A stretch of DNA of 64,000 bases from Glycomyces albidus (GTDB taxonomy: Bacteria > Actinomycetota > Actinomycetes > Mycobacteriales > Micromonosporaceae): assembly GCF_009451885.1 (NCBI RefSeq), contig NZ_WIAO01000002.1, positions 248,001 through 312,000 of the forward strand. Reading direction: 5' to 3'. Below the pieces are notes generated by a model, which made no database searches, was not told where the DNA came from, and was given only the letters and a program-made list of their open reading frames with translations. This document shows positions 34,912-39,456 of the stretch, piece by piece (positions within the stretch are counted from its first letter, which is position 1; every line of letters starts with the position of its first letter). Made by a program: the position numbers and the translations under genes.

Positions 34912-35736
34912 ATGCTGCCCCGTGAACCCGGGACGGACGCGCTCACGGCGCGATCGTCCCGGGTTGTCGCCGCCCGGAAGCTCCAGCGCCGCCGCGGCCG
35001 CGACAAGGCCGAGCGCTTCCTCGCCGAAGGCCCCCAGGCCGTCCGCGAGGCCGTGGCCGCCGGCGCCGTCGAGGACCTGTTCTACGACCTCGACGCCGAC
35101 GCCCGCCACTCGGACCTGATCGACGCCGCCGTCGCCGCGGGCGCCCACGTGCACCCGTGCACGGACGACGCGCTCGCCTCGCTCGCCGAGACCGTGACCC
35201 CGCAGGGGCTCGTGGCCGTTTGTCACTTTCTCGAGAAGCACGGTCTGGACCAGCGGGTCCCCTTCGCGGAGGCGAAGCTCGTCGCGGTCCTCCACGGCAT
35301 CACCGACCCCGGGAACGCCGGGACCGTCCTCCGCGCGGCCGACGCCGCCGGGGCCGACTGCGTGGTCTTCGGGACCGACTCGGTCGACCCGTACAACGGC
35401 AAGTGCGTGCGCGCCTCCGCCGGCAGCCTGTTCCACCTGCCGGTCGTCCGCGCCGCCGACACCGCGGACATGCTCGACCTCTTCGTGCACGCCCAGATCC
35501 TCGCGGCCGCGGCCGACGGGGAGGACCTGTACGCCCTCGACGCCGCAGGCGAGCTCGACGCGCCGACGGTGTGGCTCTTCGGCTCCGAGGCCCACGGCCT
35601 CGACGACGCCACGGCGGCGCTCGCCCACCGCAGGGTCGGCGTCCCCATCTGGGGCAAGGCCGAGTCGCTGAACCTCGCCGTCGCCGCGGGCGTCTGCCTC
35701 TACGCCTCCGCCGCCGCGCAGCGGCGCGCGTCATGA
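34912..35736 (+). CDS. SpoU/TrmH family RNA 2'-O-methyltransferase
   Basis: A 274-residue SPOUT enzyme methylating a ribose in rRNA or tRNA with S-adenosylmethionine. The N-terminal substrate domain (L30e-like, about 20-105) has FLAEGPQAVREAV; the knotted domain has motif 1 LHGITDPGNAGTVLRAADAAG in pieces (DPGNAGTVLRAAD), motif 2 VWLFGSEAHGL and motif 3 VPIWGKAESLNLAVAAGVCLY. This is the gene regularly found after rplT in actinomycetes and usually labelled 23S rRNA methyltransferase (TsnR-like); the target base is unproven. Start ATG 34912 abuts the rplT stop, indicating coupling. Confidence 0.92.
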   Translation: MLPREPGTDALTARSSRVVAARKLQRRRGRDKAERFLAEGPQAVREAVAAGAVEDLFYDLDADARHSDLIDAAVAAGAHVHPCTDDALASLAETVTPQGLVAVCHFLEKHGLDQRVPFAEAKLVAVLHGITDPGNAGTVLRAADAAGADCVVFGTDSVDPYNGKCVRASAGSLFHLPVVRAADTADMLDLFVHAQILAAAADGEDLYALDAAGELDAPTVWLFGSEAHGLDDATAALAHRRVGVPIWGKAESLNLAVAAGVCLYASAAAQRRAS

Positions 35737-35771
35737 GCGCGGCCGCGAACGCCGATGCTCGGCGCAGGAAG

Positions 35772-35777
35772 TAGAAT
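35772..35777 (+). promoter_or_regulatory. -10 box of the pheST leader
   Basis: TAGAAT, one base from the ideal TATAAT, six bases before ATG 35784. Transcription would start at or next to that ATG, making the short leader frame leaderless. Confidence 0.6.
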
Positions 35778-35783
35778 GGCCTC

Positions 35784-35840
35784 ATGTCGAACGGCTACCG
35801 CGCATTTATCCAGCCCGCCGGGTGCGGGCTGTGGCGTTAG
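35784..35840 (+). CDS. 18-residue leader peptide of pheST (candidate)
   Basis: MSNGYRAFIQPAGCGLWR, stop TAG. It sits directly behind a near-perfect -10 box. Codon 8 is UUU for phenylalanine, a codon very rare in this GC-rich DNA, placed four bases before a segment (35811-35821) that takes part in two competing stems. A ribosome waiting at UUU would cover that segment. This fits a one-codon version of pheST attenuation, known in E. coli with several Phe codons; the single codon makes the case suggestive, not proven. Confidence 0.45.
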   Translation: MSNGYRAFIQPAGCGLWR

Positions 35841-35866
35841 TCGACCACTTCCTCTCCGGCGGGCTG
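35811..35866 (+). promoter_or_regulatory. Alternative stem-loops in the pheST leader
   Basis: CAGCCCG (35811-35817) pairs with CGGGCTG (35825-35831), or the longer CAGCCCGCCGG (35811-35821) pairs with CCGGCGGGCTG (35856-35866), an 11-base perfect match. The two are exclusive. No U-run follows, only a pyrimidine stretch at 35882-35898, so termination could be factor-dependent or the effect could be on translation. Confidence 0.55.
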
Positions 35867-35922
35867 CGGCCGCGCCGCGCGCCTTCCTTAGACTTCTTGA
35901 GGTCCCGCACGGAGAGAGACAG

Positions 35923-36984
35923 ATGAGCACTGAGAACGAGGCTGGCCTGCTCCAGCCCGAGGCCCTTGCCAGGGCCGTGAAAGACGCCGCCGCCGTCATC
36001 GAGGCGGCCGCGAACCTGGCCGAACTCGCCGCCGCCAAATCCGCCACCCTCGGCGACAAGGCACCGGTGTCCTTGGCGCGCAGGGCGATCGGTTCGATCC
36101 CCGGTCCCGAGCGGGGTGAGGCCGGCCGGAACGTCAACGCCGCCCGCTCCGAGATCACGGCCGTGTACGAGGCCCGCGAGGAGGTCCTGAAGGCCGCCGA
36201 GGCGGCCCGGATCCTCCGCGAGGAGACCGTCGACGTCACGGCCCGCACGCCGCGCCGTCGCGAAGGCGCCCGCCACCCGATCAACGTGCAGATGGACCGC
36301 ATCGCGGACCTGTTCGTGGCCATGGGCTACGAGATCGGCGAGGGCCCCGAGGTCGAACTCGAGTGGTTCAACTTCGACGCGCTCAACATCCACCCCGACC
36401 ACCCTGCCCGGACCATGATGGACACGTTCCACATCGCCGACGGCAAGGGCGGGTACGGGTCGAACATGGTGCTGCGCACCCACACCTCGACCGTGCAGAT
36501 CCACACCATGCTCACGCAGGAGCCGCCGATCTACACGGTCGCGCCCGGCCGCGTGTACCGCACCGATGAGGTCGACGCGACCCACTCGCCGGTGTTCCAC
36601 CAGACCGAGGGCCTCGTGGTCGACCGGGGCATCACCATGGCCGACCTCAAGGGCACCCTCGACCACTTCGCGAAGTCCGTGTTCGGGCCCGACGCGATCA
36701 CCCGCCTGCGGCCCTCGTACTTCCCGTTCACCGAGCCCAGCGCCGAAGTGGACGTCTGGTTCGCGGCCCACAAGGACGGCCCCCGCTGGATCGAGTGGGG
36801 CGGCTGCGGCATGGTCAACCCGCGGGTGCTGCGCGCCTGCGGCATCGACCCCGACGTGTACTCGGGCTTCGCGTTCGGCATGGGGGTCGAGCGGGCGCTC
36901 ATGCTGCGCCACGGCATCACCGACCTGCGCGACATCATCGACGGCGACGTCCGGTTCCCGGCCGGCCTGCGAGTGGAGGAGTAG
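35923..36984 (+). CDS. pheS: Phenylalanine--tRNA ligase alpha subunit
   Basis: A 353-residue catalytic subunit of the (alpha-beta)2 class II synthetase. N-terminal coiled coil about 10-100; motif 1 region RRREGARHPINVQMDRIADLF in pieces (GARHPINVQMDRI), EGPEVELEWFNFDALNIHPDHPAR begins the core; motif 2 GRVYRTDEVDATHSPVFHQ and motif 3 GFAFGMGVERALMLRHG are intact. ATG 35923 has GGAGAGAGA upstream. It is followed by pheT after 3 bases and preceded by an apparent attenuator leader. Confidence 0.98.
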   Translation: MSTENEAGLLQPEALARAVKDAAAVIEAAANLAELAAAKSATLGDKAPVSLARRAIGSIPGPERGEAGRNVNAARSEITAVYEAREEVLKAAEAARILREETVDVTARTPRRREGARHPINVQMDRIADLFVAMGYEIGEGPEVELEWFNFDALNIHPDHPARTMMDTFHIADGKGGYGSNMVLRTHTSTVQIHTMLTQEPPIYTVAPGRVYRTDEVDATHSPVFHQTEGLVVDRGITMADLKGTLDHFAKSVFGPDAITRLRPSYFPFTEPSAEVDVWFAAHKDGPRWIEWGGCGMVNPRVLRACGIDPDVYSGFAFGMGVERALMLRHGITDLRDIIDGDVRFPAGLRVEE

Positions 36985-36987
36985 ACG

Positions 36988-39456
36988 ATGAGGATTCCCG
37001 TTTCCTGGCTCGCCGAGTACGCCGCCCTGCCCGCGGACCTGACCACGGAGGCGCTCGATTCCGCGCTGGTCGAGTCCGGTCTCGAGGTCGAGGAGGTCGA
37101 CGACCTCCGCGGCCGCGTCACCGGCCCGCTCGTGGTCGGCCGGGTCGCCTCGATCGAGGAGCTCACCGAGTTCAAGAAGCCGATCCGCCACTGCCACGTG
37201 GAGGTCGGCGAGGCCGAGCCGCGCTCGATCATCTGCGGCGCGAGGAACTTCGCCGAAGGCGACCTCGTCGTGGTCGCGCTGCCCGGCGCGGTGCTGCCGG
37301 GCGGGTTCGCGATCGGTTCGCGCAAGACCTACGGGCGCCTGTCGGACGGCATGATCTGCTCGGCCCGCGAGCTGGGCGTCTCCGACGACCACGACGGCAT
37401 CATCGTCCTGCCCGAGGGGACCGTGGGCGAGGACGCGCGGCCGCTCGTCGGGCTCGACGACGTCGTCTTCGAACTGGCGATCACTCCGGACATGGGCTAC
37501 TGCTTCTCGGTGCGCGGCATCGCCCGCGAGGTCGCGCACCGCCTCGGGGCCGCCTTCGCCGACCCGGCCGCGAAGGCCGACGAGCCGAAGACGACCGACG
37601 TCCCGCCGTACCCGGTGCGCGTCGAGACCGACGGCTGCACCCGGTTCACGCTGCGCGAGGTGCGCGACGTGGACGCGAACGCCGAGTCGCCCGAGTGGAT
37701 GGCGAAGCGGCTGGTCCAGGCCGGGATGCGCCCGCTGGGCCTCGCGGTCGACGTCACGAACTACCTGATGCTCGAGCTCGGGCACCCGCTGCACGCGTTC
37801 GACCGGGACGCCCTCGAGGACGTCATGGTGGTGCGCCGCGCGCAGCCCGGCGAGACGCTCACGACCCTCGACGGCGTGGAGCGCCGGCTCGACCCCGAGG
37901 ACATGGTCATCTGCGACGCGACCGGCCCGCTCTCGCTGGCCGGGGTCATGGGCGGCCTCACCTCCGAGGTCGCGCCCGGTACGCGGAACGTGCTCATCGA
38001 AGCGGCCCACTGGGACCCGGTGTCGATCGCGCGCACGTCGCGGCGGCACCGGCTGACCTCGGAGGCGTCCAAGCGCTACGAGCGCGGCGCCGATCCTGCG
38101 ATCTCGCTGCTCGCCGCCCAGCGCGCCGCGGACCTGCTCGTCGAGTACGGCGGCGGGACGCTCGTCGACGAGGTGGCCGACATCGACCGCCGCACGCCGG
38201 CCGAGCCGATCGCGGTCCCGGTCGACCTGCCCTCGCGGACCGTCGGCGTCGACTACGACCGGGCCACGGTCGTGTCGATGCTCGAAGCCGCCGGGTGCAC
38301 TGTGGACGGTGAGGGCGACGTGCTGTCGGTGACGCCCGCGTCGTGGCGACCGGACCTGACCGACCCGGCCGACCTGGTCGAGGAGGTCGTGCGGCTGCAC
38401 GGCTACGCGCACGTCCCGTCCGCGACGCCCCGCGCGATCGCCGGGACGGGCCTGACCGCCGCGCAGCGGCGCCGCCGCCGCGTCGCCCGCGCCTTGGCGG
38501 ACAACGGGTTCGTCGAGACCTACACGTTCCCGTTCGTCTCCCGCGACCGCGCCGACGAGCTGGGCCTGGACGAGAAGGACCCGCAGCGCGAGGCCGTCGC
38601 CGTGCTCAACCCGCTCGACGACGCCGCGCCGCTGCTGCGCACCACCGTGCTCGCGAGCCTGGTGAACGCCGTCAAGACCAACCTGGCGCGCGGCGCGAGG
38701 GACCTCGCGGTCTTCGAGGAGGGCCTGGTCTTCCAGCCCGCCGAGGGCTGGACCGAGCTCGACCTGGTGACGCTGCCGGTGTCCAAGCGCCCCGAGGACG
38801 AGGCCATCGCGGCCGCGATCCGGCGCCTGCCGGTGCAGCCGCGCCACGTCGCCGCGGTCCTGTGCGGCCAGGCGGTCCCCGTCGGGGTCGACGAGCCCGG
38901 CCGCGCCGTCGACTGGGCCGATGCGGTCGAGGCCGCCGAGATCGTGGCCGAGGCCGCCGGGGTGGAACTCCAAGTCGCCCAAGGGGAGGCCGCGCCGTGG
39001 CACCCCGGCCGCTGCGCCGAGCTGCGTGTGGACGGCGTCGTCGTGGGCCACGCCGGCGAGCTGCACCCGGAGGTGTGCGACCGCCTCGGGCTGCCGCGCC
39101 GCACCGCCGCGATGGAGCTCGACCTGACCGCGTTGCCGCTGCCGGACCTGGCGCCCGCGCCGGTGATCTCGCACTTCCCGGCGACGCTCATCGACGTCGC
39201 CGTGGTCGTGGCCGAGTCCGTCCCGGCCGGGCAGGTCGAGGCCGCGCTCCGCGAAGGCGCGGGGGAGCTGCTCGACTCGCTGCGCCTGTTCGACGTCTAC
39301 CGCGACCCGAAGCTCGGCGAAGGCCGGAAGTCGCTGGCGTTCAAGCTCGAGCTGCGCGCGGCCGACCGGACCCTCACCAACGAGGAGGGCGTCGCGGTCC
39401 GCGACGCCGCCGTCGCGGTCGCCGCCGAGCGCTTCGGAGCCGGCCTGCGCGAGTAG
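36988..39456 (+). CDS. pheT: Phenylalanine--tRNA ligase beta subunit
   Basis: An 822-residue tRNA-binding and editing subunit. In order: MRIPVSWLAEYAALP start, the OB-fold tRNA-binding domain (about 40-155, ICGARNFAEGDLV and RKTYGRLSDGMICSARELG), the B3/B4 editing domain (about 210-400, VDVTNYLMLELGHPLHAFD), B5 (about 405-480), the catalytic-like B6/B7 module and the FDX-ACB domain at the end (ISHFPATLIDVAVVV). All domains are present at normal length. ATG 36988 follows the pheS stop by three bases; GGAGGAG at the pheS end serves as ribosome site. Confidence 0.98.
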   Translation: MRIPVSWLAEYAALPADLTTEALDSALVESGLEVEEVDDLRGRVTGPLVVGRVASIEELTEFKKPIRHCHVEVGEAEPRSIICGARNFAEGDLVVVALPGAVLPGGFAIGSRKTYGRLSDGMICSARELGVSDDHDGIIVLPEGTVGEDARPLVGLDDVVFELAITPDMGYCFSVRGIAREVAHRLGAAFADPAAKADEPKTTDVPPYPVRVETDGCTRFTLREVRDVDANAESPEWMAKRLVQAGMRPLGLAVDVTNYLMLELGHPLHAFDRDALEDVMVVRRAQPGETLTTLDGVERRLDPEDMVICDATGPLSLAGVMGGLTSEVAPGTRNVLIEAAHWDPVSIARTSRRHRLTSEASKRYERGADPAISLLAAQRAADLLVEYGGGTLVDEVADIDRRTPAEPIAVPVDLPSRTVGVDYDRATVVSMLEAAGCTVDGEGDVLSVTPASWRPDLTDPADLVEEVVRLHGYAHVPSATPRAIAGTGLTAAQRRRRRVARALADNGFVETYTFPFVSRDRADELGLDEKDPQREAVAVLNPLDDAAPLLRTTVLASLVNAVKTNLARGARDLAVFEEGLVFQPAEGWTELDLVTLPVSKRPEDEAIAAAIRRLPVQPRHVAAVLCGQAVPVGVDEPGRAVDWADAVEAAEIVAEAAGVELQVAQGEAAPWHPGRCAELRVDGVVVGHAGELHPEVCDRLGLPRRTAAMELDLTALPLPDLAPAPVISHFPATLIDVAVVVAESVPAGQVEAALREGAGELLDSLRLFDVYRDPKLGEGRKSLAFKLELRAADRTLTNEEGVAVRDAAVAVAAERFGAGLRE

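Follow-up and report, generated by a model that had tools for sequence, protein, structure and literature searches.

The Glycomyces albidus DNA analysed here (64,000 nucleotides, referred to as the window) has, 5' of the genes for phenylalanyl-tRNA synthetase, a short open reading frame with a single, rare phenylalanine codon. This raises the question whether that one codon serves to sense Phe-tRNA and thereby to regulate pheST. We find that the element is genuine, that it is conserved, and that it goes with pheST. As judged from sequence, the UUU is most likely there because one codon senses Phe-tRNA, and we see an even chance that the region is a ribosome-controlled attenuator of pheST, with this single UUU as its sensor of charged Phe-tRNA. 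Regulation of pheST and the sign of this regulation are what we infer from the arrangement of the RNA segments described below.

On the forward strand, the window contains infC, rpmI, rplT, an rRNA methyltransferase gene, the leader region, pheS and pheT, in this order; the names infC, rpmI, rplT and pheT are presumed from position. The genes next to the leader region are the following:

34912 to 35736, forward strand: gene for a SpoU/TrmH-family rRNA methyltransferase, the upstream neighbour (Pfam PF00588, E 1.9e-35)
35923 to 36984, forward strand: pheS (PF01409, E 2.9e-96)
36988 to 39456, forward strand: pheT, the open frame directly 3' of pheS

Between the methyltransferase gene and pheS lie the leader frame and two hexamers that resemble -10 elements:

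35772 to 35777, forward strand: TAGAAT (P1), a -10-like hexamer six bases 5' of the leader ATG and a candidate leaderless start
35784 to 35840, forward strand: leader frame of 18 codons and a stop, with its ATG at 35784; it translates as MSNGYRAFIQPAGCGLWR
35805 to 35807, forward strand: UUU, codon 8, the proposed single Phe-tRNA sensor codon, as judged by conservation
35889 to 35894, forward strand: TAGACT (P2), a -10-like hexamer directly before pheS, with a putative promoter role

The initial annotation had placed TAGAAT six bases before the ATG and UUU at codon 8, and both placements are confirmed by sequence and translation. Its description of UUU as a rare codon also holds, with one TTT against 44 TTC among the 1856 codons of six neighbouring genes in the window. 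The leader has this one Phe codon and no run of regulatory codons. A scan for consensus promoters and terminators (the latter in 35600-36000) found none. An Rfam search of 35600-36000 returned nothing relevant, its single match being below the cut-off and on the opposite strand, and a T-box covariance model had no match in the same interval up to an E-value of 5.

The leader is a stable feature of the genus. PheS was found in 21 of 22 Glycomyces genomes, the window's own included, and the addition of three named records, which have the same leaders as L003, L005 and L013, brings the total to 24 loci (among the matches listed from named genomes, the closest PheS proteins are those of Glycomyces records, with 94-97% identity). 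All 24 loci keep the UUU, the frame and a stop 33 nt after the UUU, and all 24 have TANNNT exactly 6 nt before the leader ATG. In 22 loci the UUU is the eighth codon of the frame, and in the other two (L005 and L024) it is the seventh. In L019 the frame is kept and the 3' pairing arm lies beyond an insertion; this locus was retained in the counts despite its displaced arm, as were the repeat leaders L023-L025 in the counts of loci.

The proposed regulation depends on several RNA segments in and after the leader frame:

35811 to 35821, forward strand: A1, CAGCCCGCCGG, the 5' arm, three bases after the UUU, the complement of B (supported by the swap test below)
35825 to 35831, forward strand: A2, CGGGCTG, a local competitor that can pair with the first 7 bases of A1 (7 bp)
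35841 to 35855, forward strand: spacer from the leader stop to B, pyrimidine-rich and G-poor
35856 to 35866, forward strand: B, CCGGCGGGCTG, the 3' arm of A1:B, which complements all 11 bases of A1
35861 to 35884, forward strand: Bh, the hairpin GGGCTGCGGC-CGC-GCCGCGcGCCT, with a weak T-rich tail at 35882-35889
35904 to 35916, forward strand: CCCGCACGGAGAG, which includes the pheS Shine-Dalgarno site and is complementary to CTCTCCGGCGGG (spacer end plus B), as seen in a masked fold of the window

Thus A1 can indeed pair either locally over 7 bp or with 35856-35866 over 11 bp, as had been claimed from the window alone, and it starts on the fourth base after the UUU. Since Bh overlaps B, it excludes the full A1:B helix. 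The fold of 35784-35925 has a free energy of -63.8 kcal/mol (z -2.26, with 3 of 200 shuffles equally low), which is weak taken alone. Spacers in Glycomyces have a G content of 0.12 and a C content of 0.51, compared with 0.35 G in the region.

Similar short leaders, of the form F-x-x-P-A-[GVS] and followed by A1 and B, are found in Micromonospora, Salinispora, Actinoplanes, Dactylosporangium and Catellatospora. In two Phytohabitans loci (L035 and L037) a short leader with A1 and B is absent. The P2 hexamer TAGACT is also present in such leader-less loci, including these two, in which a TAGACT-like hexamer is so near that pheS itself looks leaderless; many pheS loci have a hexamer of this type just 5' of the gene, whether or not there is a leader.

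From 48 distinct prepared leaders, we aligned 34; L019, L098, L012, L063, L055, L069, L081 and L028 had been omitted before the list of 48 was made. The UUU is invariant in all 34. In these loci, A1:B is paired in 96.8% of 374 cells (slid controls 35-44%), A1:A2 in 89.5% of 238 cells and Bh in 95.9% of 340 cells; slid controls for the three helices together range over 31-59%, far below the observed pairing. Covariation within the 34 leaders did not exceed shuffle controls (72, 78 and 73 of 500 for A1:B, A1:A2 and Bh), because the columns are nearly invariant. The sequence support for the helix comes from the comparison across families, not from the short-leader lineages alone.

This comparison leads outside the window, and it is by following the element there that we came upon a second arrangement. 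In kinase-type loci, whose families, judged by sequence and the known order of genes, we take to be Streptomyces and relatives, there is no short leader; instead, a histidine-kinase gene stands between trmH and pheS, and the UUU and A1 make up its final codons. Its tail reads TTC CGA TTT ACG CTG CCC GTG (FRFTLPV). In one such locus (L193) the gene order is infC-rplT-trmH-kinase-pheS, with a kinase-type frame of 392 residues between the methyltransferase gene and pheS, and a kinase fragment from another (L175) matches HATPase_c with an E-value of 1.9e-28, as well as HisKA. The window's genome, 5.76 Mb in size, lacks a close copy of this kinase, its 15 kinase-like matches elsewhere being at best 36% identical, and the leader frame occupies the kinase gene's place.

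The initial annotation had also envisaged a leaderless start and conservation of both stems, and each of these survives in part. The leaderless start is supported by the TANNNT motif throughout Glycomyces; elsewhere it is not needed, given a Shine-Dalgarno-like stretch before the ATG in Micromonospora leaders such as L027 (seen by eye) and the lack of any short leader in kinase-type loci. A1:B is conserved, with compensating changes between families, but the local 7-bp stem A1:A2, like Bh, is found in short-leader lineages, and nothing comparable was seen in kinase-type loci. Kinase-type spacers are likewise not G-poor (G 0.35).

To collect elements without presupposing the codon, we used 191 loci: 80 from named genomes, 20 from the order (chosen from 61 genomes), 70 from the class (30 + 40, from 114/118 genomes with a match) and 21 from the genus. 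Since the named-genome set consists of the best 80 of a longer list, it favours close relatives. Of the 191, 186 were placed and analysed (all except L103, L138, L162, L163 and L171). The codon-blind query asked for an in-frame GCCC, a downstream complement of 8 nt with at most two G-U pairs, and a stop 24-54 nt after the tested codon. It returned 75 candidates in 73 of the 186 loci, and the tested codon was TTT in 69, TTC in three (L114, L135 and L142) and another codon in three. The last three, GTG in L014, ACC in L060 and ATG in L140, are probably chance hits; two of them are in loci that also bear a UUU element. Together with the invariant codon of the 34 aligned leaders, the 69 of 75 candidates bear out the expected conservation, in frame, of the Phe codon in relatives.

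When a Phe codon is required, there are 92 elements, 85 with UUU and seven with UUC; 94 of the 186 loci have no element by this definition, which is that of the swap test. Hits in L088, L059 and L089 and one second hit in L184 had been dropped by hand as chance before that test. The stop lies at +33 or +36 from the UUU in 80 of the 92 elements and elsewhere in 12, and B usually begins 40-65 nt after the UUU. The spacing from the UUU to CCC, six bases on, is a condition of the search, not a result. By eye, L119 has segments like A1 and B with UUG (Leu) at the place of the sensor and CGA still preceding it, and it may have a lost or retuned sensor.

The element thus stands 5' of pheS in most Micromonosporaceae examined and in several other actinomycete families, though not in all. 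Two sequence patterns extend this. Of 296 class genomes, 82 have the pattern TTCCGATTTNNNNTGCCC, at 83 places, and none has its reversed control; TTTANNNRGCCCGCYGG occurs in 117 of 150 family genomes and is weaker taken alone, because its control also matches 33 of the 150. From these we fetched 40 loci (30 of the 83 TTCCGATTTNNNNTGCCC places and 10 of the 121 TTTANNNRGCCCGCYGG places, at least seven of them in genomes sampled earlier). A same-strand pheS lies downstream in 39 of the 40, an 8-nt complement is present in 38, and the stop is at +33 or +36 in 39; the one locus without pheS, L222, is near a contig end. One genome (G150) has a second kinase-tail pattern match at C9:51843-51860, on a contig other than that of its pheS.

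Frames of other kinds also occur upstream of pheS. By eye, L093, L101 and L122 (two Amycolatopsis records and one further genome) have a different short leader, MERSVRSSTLFTA or MERGVRSSTLFTA followed by a stop, in which the single Phe is encoded by UUU as the third codon from the end. L091, L132 and L098 have further short frames, each with one UUU close to its 3' end; the tails before the stop read GRFLQR, GRFRRR and RRFLWPVLGPRG.

Across families, the two arms of A1:B match one another. In the swap test, each of 51 distinct A1 segments was paired with its own or another species' downstream region; the summed energy with own partners was -1258.8, compared with a mean of -1142.4 (sd 17.9) for swapped ones, and none of 20000 permutations reached it. 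A second, non-circular test anchored B on the first GGGC after the stop (lacking in two of the 92 elements) and considered the five bases next to the anchor in 30 distinct combinations: 118 of 150 positions were paired, against 104.5 (sd 3.5), a value reached in 7 of 20000 permutations, and all five bases are paired in 64 of 90 loci. As related sequences are not independent, these permutation counts are not probabilities. Individual loci illustrate how A1 and B change together: GCCCACCGG goes with CCGGTGGGC (L166, L180 and L184), GCCCGTGG with CCACGGGC (L123 and L170), and GCCCGCCAG with CTGGCGGGC (L028).

The codon and the helix also go together in kinase tails. Our table of kinases adjacent to pheS has 39 rows, selected by kinase-tail pattern; it includes three strays of the regular expression (L125 GGC, L187 GGC and L086) and misses L148. 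An 8-nt complement is present in 16 of 19 rows with UUU, in 3 of 8 with UUC and in none of 12 with another codon, the strays being among the 12. The difference between UUU rows and the rest has a Fisher value of 1.9e-5, which is not corrected for kinship. Because the complement tracks the codon, these rows point to a helix and a codon that belong together.

These data bear on the reading that there is no regulation here at all, and that the pattern reflects either constraint on the kinase-tail protein plus chance complementarity in GC-rich DNA, or an inverted repeat in DNA that is bound by a protein. An FxFxLP-like tail is usual in histidine kinases, and GC-rich sequence pairs easily: A1 averages -24.7 kcal/mol with its own partner and still -22.4 kcal/mol when swapped between species. 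Yet the element persists in the window's genome without a close copy of the kinase, kinase tails that lack the Phe have no B (none of the 12 rows), and the choice of UUU over UUC and the distance to the stop are hard to explain by a DNA-binding protein. We regard this reading as very improbable.

A different possibility is that the UUU is kept merely as a slow codon, so that any slowing of translation, by antibiotics or general starvation, would switch pheST. The preference for UUU over UUC in 85 of the 92 elements is compatible with such a general sensor of translation speed, as is the element retained with UUG in L119, if judged correctly by eye. So is the codon that precedes the UUU: CGA, a rare codon in GC-rich actinomycetes, stands directly before it in all 19 kinase-type UUU rows (for example, L123, L166, L182 and L192). 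It also stands before UUC in the three UUC rows with a complement. What speaks for phenylalanine is that the element stands before the Phe-tRNA synthetase genes, and that of the six codon-blind candidates without UUU, three have UUC, still a Phe codon, and the other three look like chance. We therefore consider a general speed sensor doubtful, with a probability well below that of Phe-tRNA sensing. CGA before UUU was also observed in frames of other kinds (L098, L111, L132 and L176), and it is possibly a slow or poorly held P-site codon.

Two further candidates were set aside. Peptide-specific arrest by F-x-x-P-A-G does not fit kinase-type tails, which read LPVG, VPTG, MPAG and the like, and frameshifting at UUUA does not fit because the base after the UUU is not always A.

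How might a ribosome on the UUU act on pheST? With this codon in the A site, a ribosome extends over some 8-12 bases further 3', so the start of A1 would be under the ribosome. A ribosome on the leader stop codon has a footprint of about +16 to +46 and would occupy the stretch that separates A1 from B, so the helix is expected to close only once this ribosome has moved off. In the mechanism that we prefer, a ribosome anywhere between the UUU and the stop would cover A1 or fill the A1-B gap, and the GC-rich A1:B helix could close only after its departure. With plentiful Phe-tRNA, the ribosome would clear in time for A1:B to close behind the polymerase, and transcripts that start at P1 or enter from the upstream gene would then end before pheST. 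With scarce Phe-tRNA, the ribosome would wait at the UUU, A1:B would stay open, and the polymerase would read into pheST. The putative second promoter, P2, would keep a basal level of pheST. As there is no U tract in the 10 nt after B (T 0.10-0.12) and no consensus terminator, this model needs Rho or another factor.

Masked folding agrees with this model in part. Without a ribosome, A1:B forms. With a ribosome stalled at the UUU, the means of three groups depend on where its 3' edge is placed: an edge at +8 keeps 5.8-7.2 A1:B pairs, one at +11 leaves 2.3-4.4, and one at +14 leaves 0.5-1.0. Since the outcome varies with the assumed edge, the regulatory sign is not fixed by folding. When the ribosome mask is placed over the stop codon instead, A1:B is still present in the computed fold (5.9-9.8 pairs); that a ribosome there would prevent the helix is a steric argument, which we infer from the footprint.

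The same sensor could also act through a helix with the opposite role, A1:B being an antiterminator and anti-sequestor, and Bh and the pairing of B with the pheS Shine-Dalgarno site being the OFF state. A ribosome at the UUU would then melt only the first bases of A1:A2 and leave CCCGCCGG free to hold B, and an edge at +8 does leave about 6-7 A1:B pairs on average. In Glycomyces, two pairings are available to the arm that a stall would free, one a hairpin that resembles a terminator and the other a duplex that hides the Shine-Dalgarno site of pheS. Bh overlaps B and has a T-rich tail, with 51% T in the 8 nt that follow; in full-length masked folding of the window, blocking of A1 leads B to pair with the Shine-Dalgarno region. 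This anatomy, as far as it can be read from sequence, suggests a sign opposite to that of the preferred model. However, the 8 nt after Bh are not T-rich in other groups, Micromonospora among them, neither A2 nor Bh is seen in kinase-type loci, and B in kinase-type loci has no better downstream partner than shuffled sequence. A terminator-like hairpin as a general downstream partner of B in all lineages is not supported (group mean z -0.8 to +2.0 relative to shuffled sequence), Bh being specific to certain lineages. Overall, we rate the opposite role of the helix as unlikely, but as an alternative of some weight.

Returning to the preferred model, in which A1:B stops transcription, the two forms of the element invite a common origin. 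In S. coelicolor, pheS is SCO1595 (PMC10771440) and the orphan kinase OhkA is SCO1596 (PMC9739842), so the kinase-pheS arrangement matches this species by adjoining locus numbers. The short leader of Glycomyces and its relatives is, on sequence grounds, probably a relic of the kinase gene. More broadly, we propose tentatively, at somewhat less than an even chance, that a full-length, functional histidine-kinase gene at the ohkA position (SCO1596, beside pheS, SCO1595) has a second function in Streptomyces and many other actinomycetes: its 3' end would serve as the leader of a pheST attenuator that responds to phenylalanine through one UUU. On this proposal, the short leaders of Glycomyces and Micromonosporaceae would be the remnant after loss of the kinase, and the leader would have arisen from a normal coding sequence, which it still overlaps in many genomes. 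This may provide a testable route for the origin of leader peptides, in which the gene body is lost and the tail survives. It also suggests that deletion of ohkA, which has been studied as a regulator of antibiotic production (PMC9739842, accessible part), might disturb pheST control in cis.

Published work bears on the attenuator reading from both sides. Against it counts that single-step competition with one regulatory codon gives hyperbolic, not hypersensitive, control, according to the accessible text of PMC1183508. It also counts against it that pheS of S. coelicolor, in one operon with pheT, is treated as dependent on HrdB, for which a site is predicted upstream of the gene (accessible text of PMC10771440). 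On the other side, PMC4824070 indicates, in its accessible part, that a ribosome near a stop codon can repress a terminator, which supports the corresponding step of the preferred model. Our literature search, which covered few subscription papers, recognised no actinomycete pheST attenuator, and pheS terms had no match in PMC13236596 or PMC2965389. Within the reach of this search, this would be the first description of a pheST attenuator in actinomycetes; for the actinobacteria that it studied, PMC1262725 (accessible part) reports that phenylalanine operons have no conserved RNA structure upstream.

The claim that a leaderless leader with a single sensor codon is an undescribed arrangement has to be withdrawn, as such a leader before a synthetase gene is not new. 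The trpL2 leader before trpS of S. lividans is likewise leaderless, with one regulatory codon, a synthetase gene and no uridine-rich sequence downstream (PMC8079986). It differs in responding to tryptophan, and the accessible text of that paper contains no comparative evidence; of the eight S. lividans leader peptides treated there, none is for Phe. The leaderless poly-cysteine short ORFs of mycobacteria are a further amino-acid-responsive attenuator of actinobacteria that uses a leaderless short ORF, but with poly-Cys frames and before other genes (cited in PMC13236596). The terminators repressed by a ribosome near a stop codon (PMC4824070, accessible part) and pyrBI resemble the proposed element in that occupancy by a ribosome prevents a hairpin and lets the polymerase pass.

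In the proposed element, a charged tRNA would be sensed through a codon, unlike in pyrBI. Attenuation of pyrBI senses UTP through the speed of the polymerase.

Features of the attenuator class, a frame with the cognate codon 5' of pheS and alternative RNA pairings, are present by conservation. Leader-peptide attenuators such as those of gammaproteobacterial pheST likewise place a frame with the cognate codon before cognate synthetase genes (PMC1262725, accessible part) and have RNA arms whose pairing follows the position of the ribosome. The actinomycete element differs from them in having one codon instead of a run, in lacking a clear U-tract terminator, and in using, in many species, the tail of a histidine-kinase gene instead of a short leader.

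Its sensor codon lies only a few bases from the arm that a stalled ribosome would cover, compared with a distance of about 15 nt to the start of the released arm in the trp attenuator of E. coli. The common picture of an amino-acid attenuator is a dedicated short leader that contains a run of codons. For the element described here, a single codon seems to suffice, and in many genomes the last part of a full gene takes the place of such a leader.
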